Assembly: GCA_900299305.1 (NCBI GenBank)
Contig: OMJJ01000240.1
Location: forward strand, 1 to 45,429
DNA length: 45,429 bases
Origin: a bacterium
GTDB taxonomy: Bacteria; Armatimonadota; Chthonomonadetes; Chthonomonadales; Chthonomonadaceae
Reading direction: 5' to 3'
The notes below the pieces were generated by a model that searched no databases, was not told where the DNA came from, and saw only the letters and a list, made by a program, of their open reading frames with translations. Each line of letters begins with the position of its first letter. Within the stretch, counting starts at the first letter, position 1. Made by a program: the position numbers and the translations under genes. This document shows positions 1,860 to 36,044 of the stretch, piece by piece.

Positions 1860-3805
1860 TGCCTACCCCGTGGGAGAGCCTAAGCCAACACCAAAAAGCG
1901 GCGGTACTGCACGATGAAAGCCCCGCGGCGGTGTTTGCCGGACCCGGTAGCGGAAAGACGCGGGTAGTCACACTTCGCACTGCCCGCCTCATTACACAGG
2001 GCAAAAACATCCTCGTTACCACCTTTACCAACGACGCAACCCAAGAGATGCGCCACCGAGTAGAGCAACTGGTAAGCAAAACCGATAGCAACAGAGCGCA
2101 CATCACCACGCTACACGCGCTCTGCCTCTCCCTACTTCGTAAGCAAAAGGTAACATTTCAACTCCTCACCGACGAGTTTCAACGCCGTAGCCTCGCCGAA
2201 GCCGCCCAAGCACACGACTTAGATGGGGGTGTAGGCGGCTTTCTCAGTCTCACCTCCTACCTCAAAAATCAGGGACAGACCGCTACCACCTACCAGCACG
2301 ACGGCTCGTCACAAGACCGCGATTTCCTGTTTGCTTGGCGAGACTACGAACGGCGCAAAGCAGAAAAAGGGCTTCGTGAGTTTGATGACCTTATCCTAGA
2401 CGCAAAGCAACTACTAGAGCAGAACGACGCGGTACGCAGAGAGTTCGCAAATGCCTACTCACACATCATCGTAGACGAGTGCCAAGACATGAACACCCCG
2501 CAGTATGCGATTGTGTTCGCACTAGGCAAAGACCACAAAAACCTGATGCTAGTCGGCGACATGGATCAGTCACTCTACGGATTTCGCGGGGCAGATACCG
2601 AGACGTTCCGCCGCTTCTCACAGCACCCACGCACCACCGTCTACGAACTGCGCGAAAACTACCGCAGTACCCGCTCTATTATCCACTTCGCCGATAGCAT
2701 TATCCGTCAAGATACCGAACGCCGCGCCCTCGTCTTTCTTCCCACCCGTCCCGAAGGCGACCCCGTGCAGTGGCAACGCTACCCCGACCCCGATATAGAG
2801 GCGATTGCGGTAGGTGAGCAGATACTGCGGCTCCACAACGGCGGCGCAAACTATAGCGACATGGCTCTGCTCTACCGTACTAACGCGCAAAGTGAGGCGT
2901 TTGAGCGCAACTTCGCCGCCCTCGAAATCCCCTACCTAATGAAAGAGTCTGGGGACTTCTATGCGCGTAAAGAGGTACAGGGACTACTTGCTTACCTTCA
3001 CTTTTTTGCGGATAAAGACCAGCAAGGGAATACCGGAGGCGATGAATGGCTACTCGCACTACTAAACGTTCCGAACCGAAAACTATCGCGGATGGTAGGG
3101 GGACAACTACGTAACTACGCCGAAATACGCGGCAGACGCATTTGGGAGGTACTAGGCGATTTCCATGCGGATAGCCTACACGCCCACAAAACTCTGCGCT
3201 CTCTGCGCGAAGAACTGCTGAAAATAGAGGCGAAACTCCCCTCGATTACCCATGCAGGAGAGGCAATTCACACTATTCGGCAAGTAACCTACTTCGACGA
3301 CTGGCTAAAGAAGAGCGAAAAAGACGAGCGGGACAATGACCGCCTACAGAACGTCCAAAGGATGCAGTCTGCCGCCGCCCACTACGCCACCATCGCAGAG
3401 TACTTAGCCGCCGTTCAGAAGGTACGCGACGAAGCCGAACGCCGCAAAGCCGAACGAGCCAAAAAGCGCAAGAAAGAGGAGGCGGTCACGTTCTGCACAG
3501 GGCACTCCGCCAAAGGCTTGGAGTGGCGGTTTGTGTTTGCCGTAGGGTGGAGTGAGCAGATACTACCACACCACAAATCGGAAGACATCGCGGAAGAGCG
3601 GCGCATTGCGTATGTCATGGCGACTCGTGCTAAAGACCGCCTTGTTATCTCCTCGCTGGAGAGTTGGAACGACGCGATAACCTCCCCCTCCCGCTTCCTG
3701 ATGCAAGCGCAGATACTGCCTACTACCGCTACCCCCCAAGAAGAAAAAGTAGAGCAGACAGAGCAGGAAGACCTTATCGGGGGGCTGTTTCTTGTGGATG
3801 TGTAG
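1859..3805 (+). CDS. UvrD/Rep/PcrA-like superfamily 1 DNA helicase
   Basis: A 648-residue ATP-dependent 3'-5' DNA helicase of the UvrD family, acting in DNA repair or replication restart. Visible motifs are a Q motif (Q12), Walker A AGPGSGKT (27-34), Walker B VDECQD (205-210, with C where most members have A), motif III GDMDQSLYGFRGAD, motif IV LRENYRST, motif V TGHSAKGLEW and motif VI VMATRAKDR. The length is slightly below typical UvrD (about 720), mainly at the C-terminus. A charged Lys/Arg/Glu-rich stretch precedes motif V. The ATG overlaps the pyrophosphatase stop (TAATG), so translation is coupled. Which of UvrD, PcrA or Rep it corresponds to cannot be settled from motifs alone. Confidence 0.93.
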   Translation: MPTPWESLSQHQKAAVLHDESPAAVFAGPGSGKTRVVTLRTARLITQGKNILVTTFTNDATQEMRHRVEQLVSKTDSNRAHITTLHALCLSLLRKQKVTFQLLTDEFQRRSLAEAAQAHDLDGGVGGFLSLTSYLKNQGQTATTYQHDGSSQDRDFLFAWRDYERRKAEKGLREFDDLILDAKQLLEQNDAVRREFANAYSHIIVDECQDMNTPQYAIVFALGKDHKNLMLVGDMDQSLYGFRGADTETFRRFSQHPRTTVYELRENYRSTRSIIHFADSIIRQDTERRALVFLPTRPEGDPVQWQRYPDPDIEAIAVGEQILRLHNGGANYSDMALLYRTNAQSEAFERNFAALEIPYLMKESGDFYARKEVQGLLAYLHFFADKDQQGNTGGDEWLLALLNVPNRKLSRMVGGQLRNYAEIRGRRIWEVLGDFHADSLHAHKTLRSLREELLKIEAKLPSITHAGEAIHTIRQVTYFDDWLKKSEKDERDNDRLQNVQRMQSAAAHYATIAEYLAAVQKVRDEAERRKAERAKKRKKEEAVTFCTGHSAKGLEWRFVFAVGWSEQILPHHKSEDIAEERRIAYVMATRAKDRLVISSLESWNDAITSPSRFLMQAQILPTTATPQEEKVEQTEQEDLIGGLFLVDV

Positions 3806-31266: not shown

Positions 31267-32241
31267 TTACCCAGAAGTGCTGAGTACGAAGGGGTCTGCA
31301 TAGATGTCGGGGAGGTTTGCCCCGCGTAGAAACGCCGTCCGCTTTGCCCCTTTTACCATCTCCGGGTGTCCGCACAGATAGACTTGCCAGCTGGTCACAT
31401 CGGGTATGTGGCGGAAGGCAAGCGAGTCGGCGCGTCCTATCTCATGGTTATACTCTGCCTCTGCATCCACGCACGCATGGTAGTAGAACTGCGGATACCT
31501 CTCGGCTAAAGCGTTTAGTTCCTGTTGTAGATAGAGTCCTTTGGGGTTCCAACTCCCATGAAAGAGGTGTATCTCCCCTTGATGTCCTGCGTAGAGCGCA
31601 GAGCGAAGTACTCCCCAGAGCGGTGCAAGCCCAGAGCCAGTACCGACAAGAAGCAGTTTTCTATTGGGGTTGCCTTCAATATAAAAACAGTTCCCGTTTG
31701 CCCCCGAAATCTCTAAAGTACTACCCTCCGTCACCTCATTGTGTAGCCATTGGGTCATGTTACCGTTGGGTAGGAGACGAATGTGGAGGTCGATAAAGGG
31801 GTCTGTTTGTGAAACGCTGGCAATGGAGTAACTTCTCACAAGCCCATCGGGACGATGAATTTGCAGGAACTGTCCCGCCTGATACTCAAACCTCTCGTCT
31901 GGTAACAACTGAAACAAGAGAATGTCGTCGTTGAGGTATCTTCTCTGTACTACGGTTGCCCGTACCCTTTGAACCGCACTCTCATCCGGTAGGCTAAGAG
32001 CCATGTCTTGGGTCGGTTTACACATACAGGCGAGAAAATAGCCTTGCGCGGCAAGCGTGTTTTTTATGCCCTGCTGTGCGCTAAGGGGAGGTGTTCCTTG
32101 TGTTGCTCGCATAAGGCAGGACTGACACACTCCTGCCCTACACGAGTTTGGGACTGCTATTCCATACCGTTCAAGTGCCTTGAGTACGGTCTCATCAGGG
32201 TCACAAGGCACATCGTGACCCTGAAAAGTGAGCGTTGTCAT
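31267..32241 (-). CDS. Ferredoxin-linked FAD/NAD(P)H oxidoreductase
   Basis: A 324-residue flavoprotein. An N-terminal [2Fe-2S] ferredoxin domain (C34, C39, C42 and C72 or C74) is joined to a ferredoxin-NADP reductase-type module. That module has the FAD motif RSYS (136-139) and the NAD(P) motif GTGSGLAP (200-207). The C-terminal LCGHPEMV is typical of reductases that pass electrons from NAD(P)H through FAD to the iron-sulfur centre. It lies 16 bases downstream of the truncated hemoglobin gene, so it is probably that globin's reductase: together they equal the parts of flavohemoglobin, with an extra ferredoxin. GAGG precedes the start. Confidence 0.88.
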   Translation of the reverse strand: MTTLTFQGHDVPCDPDETVLKALERYGIAVPNSCRAGVCQSCLMRATQGTPPLSAQQGIKNTLAAQGYFLACMCKPTQDMALSLPDESAVQRVRATVVQRRYLNDDILLFQLLPDERFEYQAGQFLQIHRPDGLVRSYSIASVSQTDPFIDLHIRLLPNGNMTQWLHNEVTEGSTLEISGANGNCFYIEGNPNRKLLLVGTGSGLAPLWGVLRSALYAGHQGEIHLFHGSWNPKGLYLQQELNALAERYPQFYYHACVDAEAEYNHEIGRADSLAFRHIPDVTSWQVYLCGHPEMVKGAKRTAFLRGANLPDIYADPFVLSTSG

Positions 32242-32257
32242 TCGGGACTTCTATCCT

Positions 32258-32635
32258 CTATCGTCCTAAAACGTCGTTACGGGTTGTTTCGGCAAGAGCC
32301 GCAACTTCGGCGATGTCTGCATCCGATACCCCTAGTTCGTGCAATGTAGCACCAAGGTTCTCTACCACTGCATCGAAGTGACTATCGTTCAGCCCTCGTG
32401 CTACAAGGTGCGCGTGTCCTTTTCTCATGTCTAGCCCGGTGTAGTTGTTGGGTCCTCCGAAAACAAACGTTAGAAACGCTTTCTGCTTTGCGGCTTGCCG
32501 CTCCATATCTACCCCATCAAAAAAGGCGTTGATTCTATCGTCTACCAGTACTTTTCGGTAGAAGTTGTTTACGGCGAGGTCTACGGCGGCGGCTCCTCCT
32601 AATCGCTCGTAAAGGGAAGTGTTTGCATCAGACAT
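32258..32635 (-). CDS. Group I truncated hemoglobin
   Basis: A 125-residue 2/2 globin. It has SLYERLGG at the N-terminus, B10 Tyr in FYRKVL (Y26), the GGP-NNYTG stretch before helix F (60-67), and the proximal F8 His in LDMRKGH (H74). The pattern follows TrHbN, known for nitric oxide dioxygenase activity in mycobacteria. The start at 32635 (MSDANTSLYE) is set by AGGAG seven bases upstream; a start 12 codons earlier has no such site. It shares an operon with a ferredoxin-flavin reductase, which could reduce the heme between cycles. Nitric oxide detoxification is a likely role (inference). Confidence 0.93.
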   Translation of the reverse strand: MSDANTSLYERLGGAAAVDLAVNNFYRKVLVDDRINAFFDGVDMERQAAKQKAFLTFVFGGPNNYTGLDMRKGHAHLVARGLNDSHFDAVVENLGATLHELGVSDADIAEVAALAETTRNDVLGR

Positions 32636-32682
32636 TAGATTGCTCCTATTCTTGTGTAGTGATAAACCCATCTCACATAGTG

Positions 32683-32712
32683 AGTATAACGCCCTCTGGT
32701 TGCCTGTGTCAA
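32683..32712 (-). promoter_or_regulatory. Promoter of globin-reductase operon
   Basis: On the minus strand TTGACA (32707-32712), an 18-base spacer and TATACT (32683-32688). The predicted start of transcription near 32676 leaves a leader of about 40 bases. The -35 box lies inside a large inverted repeat. Confidence 0.75.
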
Positions 32713-32736
32713 GATATATAGATAAGTTTATCTTGA
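32709..32736. promoter_or_regulatory. Inverted-repeat operator over -35 of globin operon
   Basis: TCAAGATA (32709-32716) and TATCTTGA (32729-32736) form a perfect 8-bp inverted repeat with a 12-base gap, with a smaller one (GATAA-gt-TTATC) inside. The AAGAT/ATCTT ends recall the NsrR consensus ends, but the spacing is one base longer. Binding here would compete with RNA polymerase. The regulator is unknown. Confidence 0.6.
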
Positions 32737-33571: not shown

Positions 33572-33591
33572 GCACACTCCCTAAAAATTGG

Positions 33592-33636
33592 CACAAAAGC
33601 CCCCACCCTCAAAAAGAGGAGTTGGGGGCTTTTGTG
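33592..33636. terminator. Strong bidirectional intrinsic terminator
   Basis: CACAAAAGCCCCCA (33592-33605) pairs perfectly over 14 bases with TGGGGGCTTTTGTG (33623-33636), with an inner stem CCTC-aaaaa-GAGG. The GC core is flanked by A residues on one side and T residues on the other, so it can work in both directions. It closes the FxLYD-like gene. Confidence 0.8.
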
Positions 33637-33650
33637 GTGTATCTACCCCC

Positions 33651-36044
33651 ATGACGAAGTGTTACCCCCTACTTCTAACTTTTCTTTTGGGAACCCTTTT
33701 CCCCCTTGTTGCTGTGCAAGCCGCTCCGCAAAACGCACAAGGCAAAGCGGTCTCCTTACCCTCTTCCTACTTCGAGACACAGGTACGCCCCCTCCTTCAA
33801 CAAAACTGTTTGGGGTGTCATGGGGTAGGCAGTACGCTCGGTAGTTTAGACCTGCGTACCCGTGCCTCTGCCCTAAAAGGGGGAACACGGGGAGCCGCCT
33901 TCGTAGCAGGTAGCGCGGAAAAAAGCCTGCTCTACAAACTGGTGACGGGAACACGCGCCCCCGTCATGCCTCCCAATAAAAAACTGACCCCCAACCAGAT
34001 ACAAGTCCTAAAAACGTGGATAGACAACGGCGCAAACTGGGAAGGTAGCCTTGTAACGGCAACCGCACAAGTATGGTGGTCGTTCCAAGCCCCAAAACTG
34101 CCCAAAGTCCCCGCCCTTAGCCCCGTAAACACGGCAAAGAACCCTATAGATGCGTTTGTGTTACAAAAACTCCATGCCGCAAACCTTACGCCTTCCCCTA
34201 TAGCAGACCGCCGTACCCTTATTCGTCGCGCCTACTTCGATATGGTGGGCTTACCTCCTACCCCTAAAGAGGTGGACGATTTTATAGCCGATAGGTCGCC
34301 AAACGCTTACGAGAAGGTGGTCGACAGGCTTCTCGCCTCTCCGCGCTATGGAGAACGTTGGGGGCGGCACTGGCTCGACCTTGCCCGCTATGCCGATAGC
34401 GGTGGTTTTGAGGGAGACAGAGACCGTGCCCTCGCATGGCGGTATCGGGACTATGTGATACAGGCTTTCAATACCGACAAGCCCTATAATGAGTTTATAA
34501 AAGAACAGATTGCGGGGGACGAACTGCGCCCTAATGACCCCGAAGCACTCGTCGCAACGGGCTATCTTGCTTGTGGACCTCAAGATATTGTGGAGATGAA
34601 CGCCCGTACTCGTGCCAACGAACTAGACGACCTTGTGGCGACAACGGGGTCGGTGGTGCTAGGTTTAACCATTGGGTGCGCGAGATGCCATGACCACAAG
34701 TACGACCCCGTGAAGATGACCGACTACTACCGCCTGAGTGCCGTGTTTGCGCCCACAGAGCGCAGGGAGGTCGATATTCCCACCCCAGAAGAGCGTAGCG
34801 CGTATGAGAAGAGAAACGCGGAGGTAGAGCAGGTTGCCGCCCCCCTACGTCCCAAAGTAGAAAGTCTACTACAACGGGGAAAAGCACTCTCTATAAAGGC
34901 GGGAGTGCTTTCCCCAAACGACGACCAGATAGTAATGGCACTGCCCGAAGCGGAGCGCAAGCAACTTAAAGAGTACCAAGACGCGATACGTGCCGCAGAA
35001 GCGCGGCGAATAGTACTACCCCATGCCGCCATTATCACCGATAAGGGAAGGGAGTTTCCTAAGTGCTACCTGCTTTTACGGGGAGATGCCTACCATAAAG
35101 GGGCGGAGGTGAAGCCGGGCTTTATTGTATCACTACCCAATGGGCAACAGGATATAGGGGACGCACCTGCCGACTCGTCTACCACAAAAAGGCGCACGGC
35201 TCTCGCTAACTGGCTGGTATCGCCCGAAAACCCTCTAACGGCACGGGTATGGATGAATAGGGTATGGCGATGGCATTTCGGGCGCGGTATTGTAAGCACA
35301 CCGAGCAACTTTGGGCTAAACGGCGAACTGCCCTCCCACCCCGAACTCCTCGACTGGCTTGCGCTTACTTTCCAAAAAGAGGGGTGGAGACTCAAGCCCA
35401 TTCACAAACTTATCTTGCTCTCTTCCACCTACCAACAGGCTACAGTGGTACGCCCCGACGCACTCAAAGCAGACCCCCAAAACCGACTCTATTGGCGTAT
35501 GCCACTCCGTAGATTAGAAGGCGAAGCGATACGGGATAGCATCTTGGCAGTGGCAGGTACTCTGAATTTGGAGATGGGGGGCGCACCTGTCTACCCGCCT
35601 ATAGACCCCTCCTTACGCGCAGACACCTTCCAAGGTCCCAACTGGTTCAATGGGCAAGACGACCCGACTACATGGCGCAGAAGCGTGTATGTAAAAGTAA
35701 AGCGGTCTCTTTTGTTGCCGCATTTAGAGGTGTTCGACTGCCCCGAAATCACCTATACCGTAGCACAACGTAACACCACCACCACCCCATTACAGGCACT
35801 ACTCCTCCTAAACGACCCCCTCATACTCCATCAGGCACAACTCTTTGCAGAACGCCTAAAGCGCGAACGCCCTAGCAGTTTGCCCGAACAGATAGAGTGG
35901 GGATACCGCCTTGCGGTGGGGCGTTCGCCAAAACCCCAAGAGCGTAGCCTCGTTCTCCAGTTTGTTCGGCAACGTGGAGAGACGGGCTTAACCGATTTCT
36001 GTCAAGCCCTCTTTAATCTCAATGAGTTCGTCTACTCTCCCTAA
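33651..36044 (+). CDS. Cytochrome c (PSCyt1)-DUF1549-DUF1553 protein
   Basis: A 797-residue exported protein of the Planctomycete cytochrome architecture. A signal peptide (about 1-25) is followed by a c-type heme site C53-LG-CH57 (QQNCLGCHGVG) in the PSCyt1 region (about 35-125), the DUF1549 (PSCyt2) domain (about 155-365, with KNPIDAFVLQKL and RYGERWGRHWLDLARYADS) and the DUF1553 (PSD1) domain from about 530 to the end (RTALANWLVSPENPLTARVW). The partner DUF1501 gene usually found next to it is absent. The ATG 33651 lies directly after the hairpin terminator with no clear Shine-Dalgarno. Its stop abuts that of the acyl-CoA ligase. A role in polysaccharide or redox metabolism has been proposed for the family but is not established. 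Confidence 0.88.
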   Translation: MTKCYPLLLTFLLGTLFPLVAVQAAPQNAQGKAVSLPSSYFETQVRPLLQQNCLGCHGVGSTLGSLDLRTRASALKGGTRGAAFVAGSAEKSLLYKLVTGTRAPVMPPNKKLTPNQIQVLKTWIDNGANWEGSLVTATAQVWWSFQAPKLPKVPALSPVNTAKNPIDAFVLQKLHAANLTPSPIADRRTLIRRAYFDMVGLPPTPKEVDDFIADRSPNAYEKVVDRLLASPRYGERWGRHWLDLARYADSGGFEGDRDRALAWRYRDYVIQAFNTDKPYNEFIKEQIAGDELRPNDPEALVATGYLACGPQDIVEMNARTRANELDDLVATTGSVVLGLTIGCARCHDHKYDPVKMTDYYRLSAVFAPTERREVDIPTPEERSAYEKRNAEVEQVAAPLRPKVESLLQRGKALSIKAGVLSPNDDQIVMALPEAERKQLKEYQDAIRAAEARRIVLPHAAIITDKGREFPKCYLLLRGDAYHKGAEVKPGFIVSLPNGQQDIGDAPADSSTTKRRTALANWLVSPENPLTARVWMNRVWRWHFGRGIVSTPSNFGLNGELPSHPELLDWLALTFQKEGWRLKPIHKLILLSSTYQQATVVRPDALKADPQNRLYWRMPLRRLEGEAIRDSILAVAGTLNLEMGGAPVYPPIDPSLRADTFQGPNWFNGQDDPTTWRRSVYVKVKRSLLLPHLEVFDCPEITYTVAQRNTTTTPLQALLLLNDPLILHQAQLFAERLKRERPSSLPEQIEWGYRLAVGRSPKPQERSLVLQFVRQRGETGLTDFCQALFNLNEFVYSP

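Follow-up and report, generated by a model that had tools for sequence, protein, structure and literature searches.

A truncated hemoglobin and a [2Fe-2S]-flavin reductase encoded side by side in an armatimonadotal genome: a putative two-component nitric oxide dioxygenase

Introduction

What re-reduces a single-domain globin has been called the limiting question in deciding whether these proteins detoxify nitric oxide (NO), knowledge of the partner reductases being judged more useful than additional data on NO and O2 binding (PMC2323109). The question is raised anew by two adjacent genes in a 45,429-nucleotide stretch of DNA (hereafter, the window) from a 4.47-Mb draft genome, 95% complete, with Chthonomonas-like Armatimonadota as its nearest named relatives. 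One gene encodes a group I truncated hemoglobin (trHbN) and the other a ferredoxin-FAD-NAD(P)H reductase; is the second protein the electron donor of the first, and what would the two accomplish together?

The suggestion in the original prediction that this pairing may identify the missing reductase partner of trHbN comes late. Rodionov et al. 2005 described the glbN-lpg2536 operon (glbN-ferredoxin reductase) of Legionella pneumophila, the only target predicted for NsrR in that organism, and proposed that its products oxidise NO in the manner of the flavohemoglobin Hmp (PMC1274295); Gardner 2012 restated the proposal and argued for FNR-like donors to truncated globins generally (PMC3820574). 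The central idea is thus already published as a prediction, of which the window pair is a further case; no experiment on a globin–reductase pair was found in the open-access literature, a search that could miss subscription work. Added here to the Legionella prediction are the extent of the pairing, its specificity for one reductase subfamily, natural fusions, and an armatimonadotal operator with a candidate regulator.

The gene pair and its promoter

Both coding sequences (globin 32635-32258, reductase 32241-31267) lie on the minus strand, which the original prediction did not give, and Pfam and PDB matches together with the coordinates confirm the gene order and the 16 intervening bases that it did describe. 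The features of the locus are:

32707..32712, minus strand: TTGACA, -35 like element (consensus scan; kept in L100 and L101)
32683..32688, minus strand: TATACT, -10 like element (consensus scan and position)
32643..32647, minus strand: AGGAG, ribosome-binding site of the globin gene (sequence)
32258..32635, minus strand: group I truncated hemoglobin of trHbN/GlbN type, 125 aa (Pfam Bac_globin, PDB 2hz2, residue alignment)
32242..32257, minus strand: 16-nt spacer AGGATAGAAGTCCCGA from globin stop to reductase start, with an AGGA ribosome-binding-like stretch (sequence)
31267..32241, minus strand: [2Fe-2S]-FAD-NAD(P)H reductase, 324 aa (Pfam Fer2, FAD_binding_6, NAD_binding_1; PDB 5ogx, 4wqm, 1krh)

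The promoter, TTGACA-18-TATACT, lies 48-77 nt upstream of the globin start and agrees with the consensus at 11 of 12 positions. Taken alone, this agreement is weak evidence, because the region contains three promoter-like sites where shuffled sequence would give 1.8; the -35 region and a palindrome overlapping it are conserved in two same-genus genomes (L100 and L101), and the good promoter noted earlier ahead of the globin stands with that addition. Further along the window, at 33588-36044 on the plus strand, is a large open reading frame (ORF) whose product contains a CxxCH motif (NCLGCHG) and has a planctomycete-type appearance; it is unrelated to the pair.

The globin

The window globin matches Pfam Bac_globin over residues 7-121 (E 1.2e-17), and its best solved relative is Synechocystis GlbN (PDB 2hz2, E 3e-35). 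THB1 and Mycobacterium tuberculosis HbN (E 4.5e-19) are also matched in the PDB; the best matches are all group I, with the group II protein HbO appearing only at 7e-5. Alignment to Synechocystis GlbN places His74 at F8, Tyr26 at B10, Gln47 at E7, and Gln51 at E11, and the full-length domain match combined with His F8, Tyr B10, and polar residues at E7 and E11 assigns the protein to group I. Tyr B10, Gln E7, and His F8 occur in all 86 aligned globins, and Lys E10 and Gln E11 in 85 of them. The distal set Tyr B10/Gln E7/Gln E11 is of the kind that stabilises bound O2 in trHbN. M. tuberculosis HbN, likewise group I, has the same Tyr B10 and Gln E11 but carries Leu at E7. Lys E10 is common to the window globin and THB1; in the algal proteins THB1, THB2, and THB4 this residue takes the sixth coordination position of the heme (PMC7082302).

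A profile search of the same genome (draft, 95% complete) found no PF00042 globin, and therefore no flavohemoglobin is detectable there. The second Bac_globin match of that genome (C70; L003:1474-2616, plus strand) is a 380-aa globin fused to ankyrin repeats and was rejected as a part of the pair.

The reductase

The window reductase begins with a plant-type [2Fe-2S] domain (Fer2), followed by FAD_binding_6 and NAD_binding_1; this is the order found in the reductases of benzoate dioxygenase (BenC) and toluene-4-monooxygenase (T4MO), and its solved relatives are PDB 5ogx, 4wqm, and 1krh. The cluster cysteines Cys34/39/42/72 (C-x4-C-x2-C...C), RSYS at 136 (RxYS), GTGSGLAP at 200 (GxGxG), and a CG motif are those of a [2Fe-2S]-FAD-NAD(P)H reductase of BenC-type order. 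None of 77 aligned reductases departs from the four cysteines or RxYS, the nucleotide motifs vary little, and a G-x-C-x-Y motif at 183-187 is kept in at least 95% of the aligned proteins. The heme, flavin, and NAD(P)H parts and the added [2Fe-2S] domain that had been predicted are all recognisable in the domains and cofactor-binding residues, and the folds of both proteins are fixed by their sequence matches to solved structures.

Identification with BenC, MmoC, or another named oxygenase reductase was rejected, every NCBIfam equivalog cut-off being well missed (BenC, 144 bits against a cut-off of 430; MmoC, 149 against 500). BenC/T4MO-type reductases share the succession of an N-terminal [2Fe-2S] domain followed by FAD and NAD domains (PDB 1krh, 4wqm), but the gene partnering the window reductase encodes a globin, not an oxygenase. 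The two products of the operon also differ markedly in constraint: the globin is 70-90% identical across phyla and the partner reductase mostly 40-50% (L004-L083).

Conservation of the pair

Conservation of the gene pair, on which the original prediction could be judged, was sought in the 80 nearest globin loci of 84,980 species genomes. In 72 of them the reductase gene comes directly after the globin gene in the same orientation, and one of the remaining eight (L046) is cut by a contig end; the loci span Pseudomonadota, Armatimonadota, Myxococcota, Acidobacteriota, and others. To avoid sampling only close kin, 229 genomes were drawn evenly from one proteobacterial class. There, 32 of 37 reductases of the subfamily (E <= 1e-53) stand directly behind a globin, at 8-178 nt, as against none of 12 more distant reductases (29-34% identity). 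Counted by genome, 33 have both proteins, 11 the globin only, one the reductase only, and 184 neither (Fisher p = 3e-29, a value that ignores kinship between genomes and is best read as 'strong' rather than as a probability). Chance cannot explain the pairing.

The reductase might still mainly serve an oxygenase or another iron protein, adjoining the globin only as both are induced by NO. Subfamily reductases that stand apart from a globin do occur near a NorB-like gene (L212), a hemerythrin-like gene (L210), and Psr/NapC-like genes (L211), these neighbours being named by eye, and no subfamily reductase was found in the genomes of six nearby globins (L024, L032, L038, L039, L074, and L080). 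The globin can, therefore, have other donors, as also follows from the 22 unpaired globin matches among 54 in the class sample. Set against service to other partners are the 32 of 37 placements directly behind a globin, the existence of reductase–globin fusions (below), and the lack of any oxygenase component among the ORFs neighbouring the window pair, which make this account very doubtful. The stand-alone reductases at L210:1053-2837 and L212:1290-3397 hint at use of the subfamily with other O2/NO proteins.

In both the globin and the reductase trees the window groups with L004 and L005 (support 98-100), in a clade separate from three other armatimonadotal pairs (L036, L077, and L081); the globin tree is poorly resolved. 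It is possible, on these trees, that the pair was acquired more than once.

Fused versions were also looked for and found, in two genomes. The genome of locus L010 contains a 537-aa ORF (L177:1477-3090, plus strand) with Fer2, FAD_binding_6, and NAD_binding_1 domains and then Bac_globin (residues 373-458, E 1.7e-8), and genome G246 contains a 530-aa relative (L209:1165-2757, minus strand) of the same reductase–truncated globin build. The reductase comes first and the globin last, the reverse of flavohemoglobin. These natural fusions support a functional partnership of the two domain types; they are not read as the ancestor of the window pair, because their globin part is diverged. Both fusions carry a C-terminal CxxC...CxxC stretch, and a radical-SAM-like gene (named by eye) adjoins each.

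Nitric oxide in the surroundings of the pair

A globin alone is weak evidence for a role in NO metabolism, because many globins destroy NO once artificially reduced (PMC2323109). An NsrR homologue lies within about 5 kb in 34 of the 80 loci, in most cases transcribed divergently from the globin gene at a distance of a few hundred bases, and canonical NsrR boxes with at most one mismatch precede 28 of the 80 globins, against 0.6 expected from shuffles. The gene for the Fe-S repair protein RIC/YtfE is nearby in four of the loci (L025, L029, L030, and L034) and NorCB in three (L025, L039, and L061). In a Methyloprofundus culture, furthermore, a group I truncated hemoglobin ranks in the top ten genes by transcription, which the authors regarded as a possible NO response (PMC8788690). 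The link of the pair to NO, as read from genomic context, is strong but indirect.

The same regulatory context would be predicted if the pair acted on nitrogen oxides mainly at low oxygen, the reduced globin serving not as a dioxygenase but to reduce nitrite, NO, or hydroxylamine. Algal group I globins, when reduced, do reduce nitrite (PMC7082302), and the NorCB neighbours are denitrification genes. The distal residues of the window globin are, however, of the O2-stabilising kind, and a second NO reductase would be redundant where NorB is present, which together make such a function unlikely. The donor chain would be identical if the globin carried or stored O2 for respiration in a microoxic environment, the reductase being simply its methemoglobin reductase, and a terminal-oxidase role of trHbN has been argued for in an iron-oxidiser genome paper (PMC3770913); yet the regulatory links—NsrR genes, NsrR boxes, RIC, and NorCB—are to NO and not to genes of oxygen respiration, and respiratory O2 supply is considered most improbable.

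A candidate operator and regulator

In the promoter of the window pair no canonical NsrR box was found, the best match having three mismatches. Two other elements are present:

32711..32734, minus strand: 24-bp imperfect palindrome AAGATAAACTTATCTATATATCTT, candidate repressor operator over the -35 box (sequence, own-genome search)
32720-32733, minus strand: inner core RGATAWNNWTATCY of the palindrome (sequence)

The 24-bp palindrome is the sole match in its genome when up to three mismatches are allowed. The core occurs at seven places in the genome against one for the reversed control, a count that is partly circular as the motif was first read off the genome's own globin and rrf2 promoters. 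Three of the seven places are promoters, namely, those of the globin operon, an Rrf2-family gene on contig C71, and the RIC/YtfE gene on C144, and the other four are inside ORFs. Given the derivation of the motif, it is the RIC site and the relatives that offer an independent test. Among the relatives the motif is found in eight of 18 rrf2 promoters (shuffles, 0.01), in six of 21 RIC promoters, the window genome's own gene being one of the six (shuffles, 0.00), and in two of six globin promoters, both same-genus. The RIC promoter of the same-genus genome G002 has AAGATAAGATTATCTATATATCTT where the window has AAGATAAACTTATCTATATATCTT. The element comes after the -10 box in G002 and lies across the -35 box in the window. 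The occurrence of a single element at both promoter positions is what a repressor operator would show, for which the palindrome is a candidate.

The RIC/YtfE gene itself (L091:3-1396, minus strand) encodes ScdA_N and Hemerythrin domains; a YwiC-like gene follows it, and the motif is upstream. The Rrf2-family gene (L086:1404-1841, minus strand) is divergent from that of a 442-aa CxxCH protein without a Pfam match (1961-3289, plus strand), an arrangement that recurs in L113, L114, L115, and L117. In genome G007 the globin, reductase, and rrf2 genes stand in a row, and the Rrf2 orthologue adjoins RIC in several relatives. This gene is preferred as the candidate regulator because two further Rrf2 genes of this genome lack the operator motif and were set aside: that of L085 precedes a gene read as a cysteine synthase, and that of L084 has the SUF regulator as its best specific-model score. 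The preferred protein is not NsrR proper, scoring 58.7 bits against a model cut-off of 182 and having two conserved cysteines in CPL-x8-CPLHR versus the three Fe-S cysteines of NsrR; 'NsrR-like' is, for this reason, a statement about its context only. That it binds the operator and responds to NO is what we infer from these arrangements.

Proposed mechanism and comparison with known systems

Because the pair is conserved, fusions exist, regulators and neighbours are linked to NO, and no flavohemoglobin is detectable, the two genes probably form an operon for a two-component NO dioxygenase, a putative activity. NAD(P)H would reduce the FAD of the reductase, and the [2Fe-2S] domain would relay the electrons one at a time to the ferric globin heme. 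The ferrous heme would then bind O2, and the oxy-heme would turn NO into nitrate, leaving a ferric heme for the next cycle. The cofactor chain is backed by residues in both proteins, from which point each electron-transfer step, and NO as the substrate, is our proposal. The Rrf2-family repressor would probably occupy the palindrome that overlaps the -35 box and come off it under nitrosative stress; its release would co-induce the globin–reductase pair with RIC/YtfE. A split flavohemoglobin-like module accordingly remains the best explanation of the locus, as originally predicted; it is the novelty of the partner that does not stand.

The closest precedent is glbN-lpg2536, which, by its published description, resembles the window in consisting of a GlbN-type globin gene directly followed by a ferredoxin reductase gene, in its predicted Rrf2-family NO regulator, and in a genome without flavohemoglobin. 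The window differs in belonging to Armatimonadota, in having the operator RGATAWNNWTATCY instead of the canonical NsrR box gATGyAT-N5-ATrCATc, and in a candidate regulator outside the NsrR model. Hmp, too, is a functional unit built from heme, FAD, and NAD(P)H domains that follows the logic of an NO dioxygenase. The window pair is, however, not itself a flavohemoglobin: there are two chains, the globin is a truncated 2/2 (Bac_globin, not PF00042) rather than a 3/3 type, a [2Fe-2S] domain is added, and the FAD/NAD part is only distantly similar (61.8 bits against an Hmp cut-off of 432). In algae, Chlamydomonas THB1 with the nitrate reductase diaphorase, and NR2-2/2HbN of Heterosigma, also combine a group I truncated globin with a reducing flavin domain of the FNR superfamily for NO detoxification; the algal donor is a nitrate reductase of cytochrome b5 type, whereas the window partner is a [2Fe-2S]-flavin reductase.

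The chances seem evenly balanced that these pairs make up a widespread class of NO dioxygenase distinct from Hmp. Its members would use a [2Fe-2S]-flavin reductase as the dedicated electron source of a truncated hemoglobin with Lys E10, they would be encoded by two-gene operons in several phyla and by single-chain fusions, and in Armatimonadota an Rrf2 repressor of non-canonical type would govern them through an operator of its own. Were this so, the reductase partner would be settled for a large share of trHbN proteins. This pair offers a candidate answer: the gene partner is conserved, fusions occur in nature, and the regulon is of NO type, so that two small soluble proteins suffice for a direct test. 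The 2005 Legionella prediction is thereby extended to several phyla, and a testable operator and regulator are offered for the NO responses of Armatimonadota.

The same globin also occurs as tandem in-frame copies, three in one ORF of 428 aa and two in each of several ORFs of about 270-300 aa (L008:4080-5366, L078:4950-5756, and genomes G102, G114, G121, and G240).
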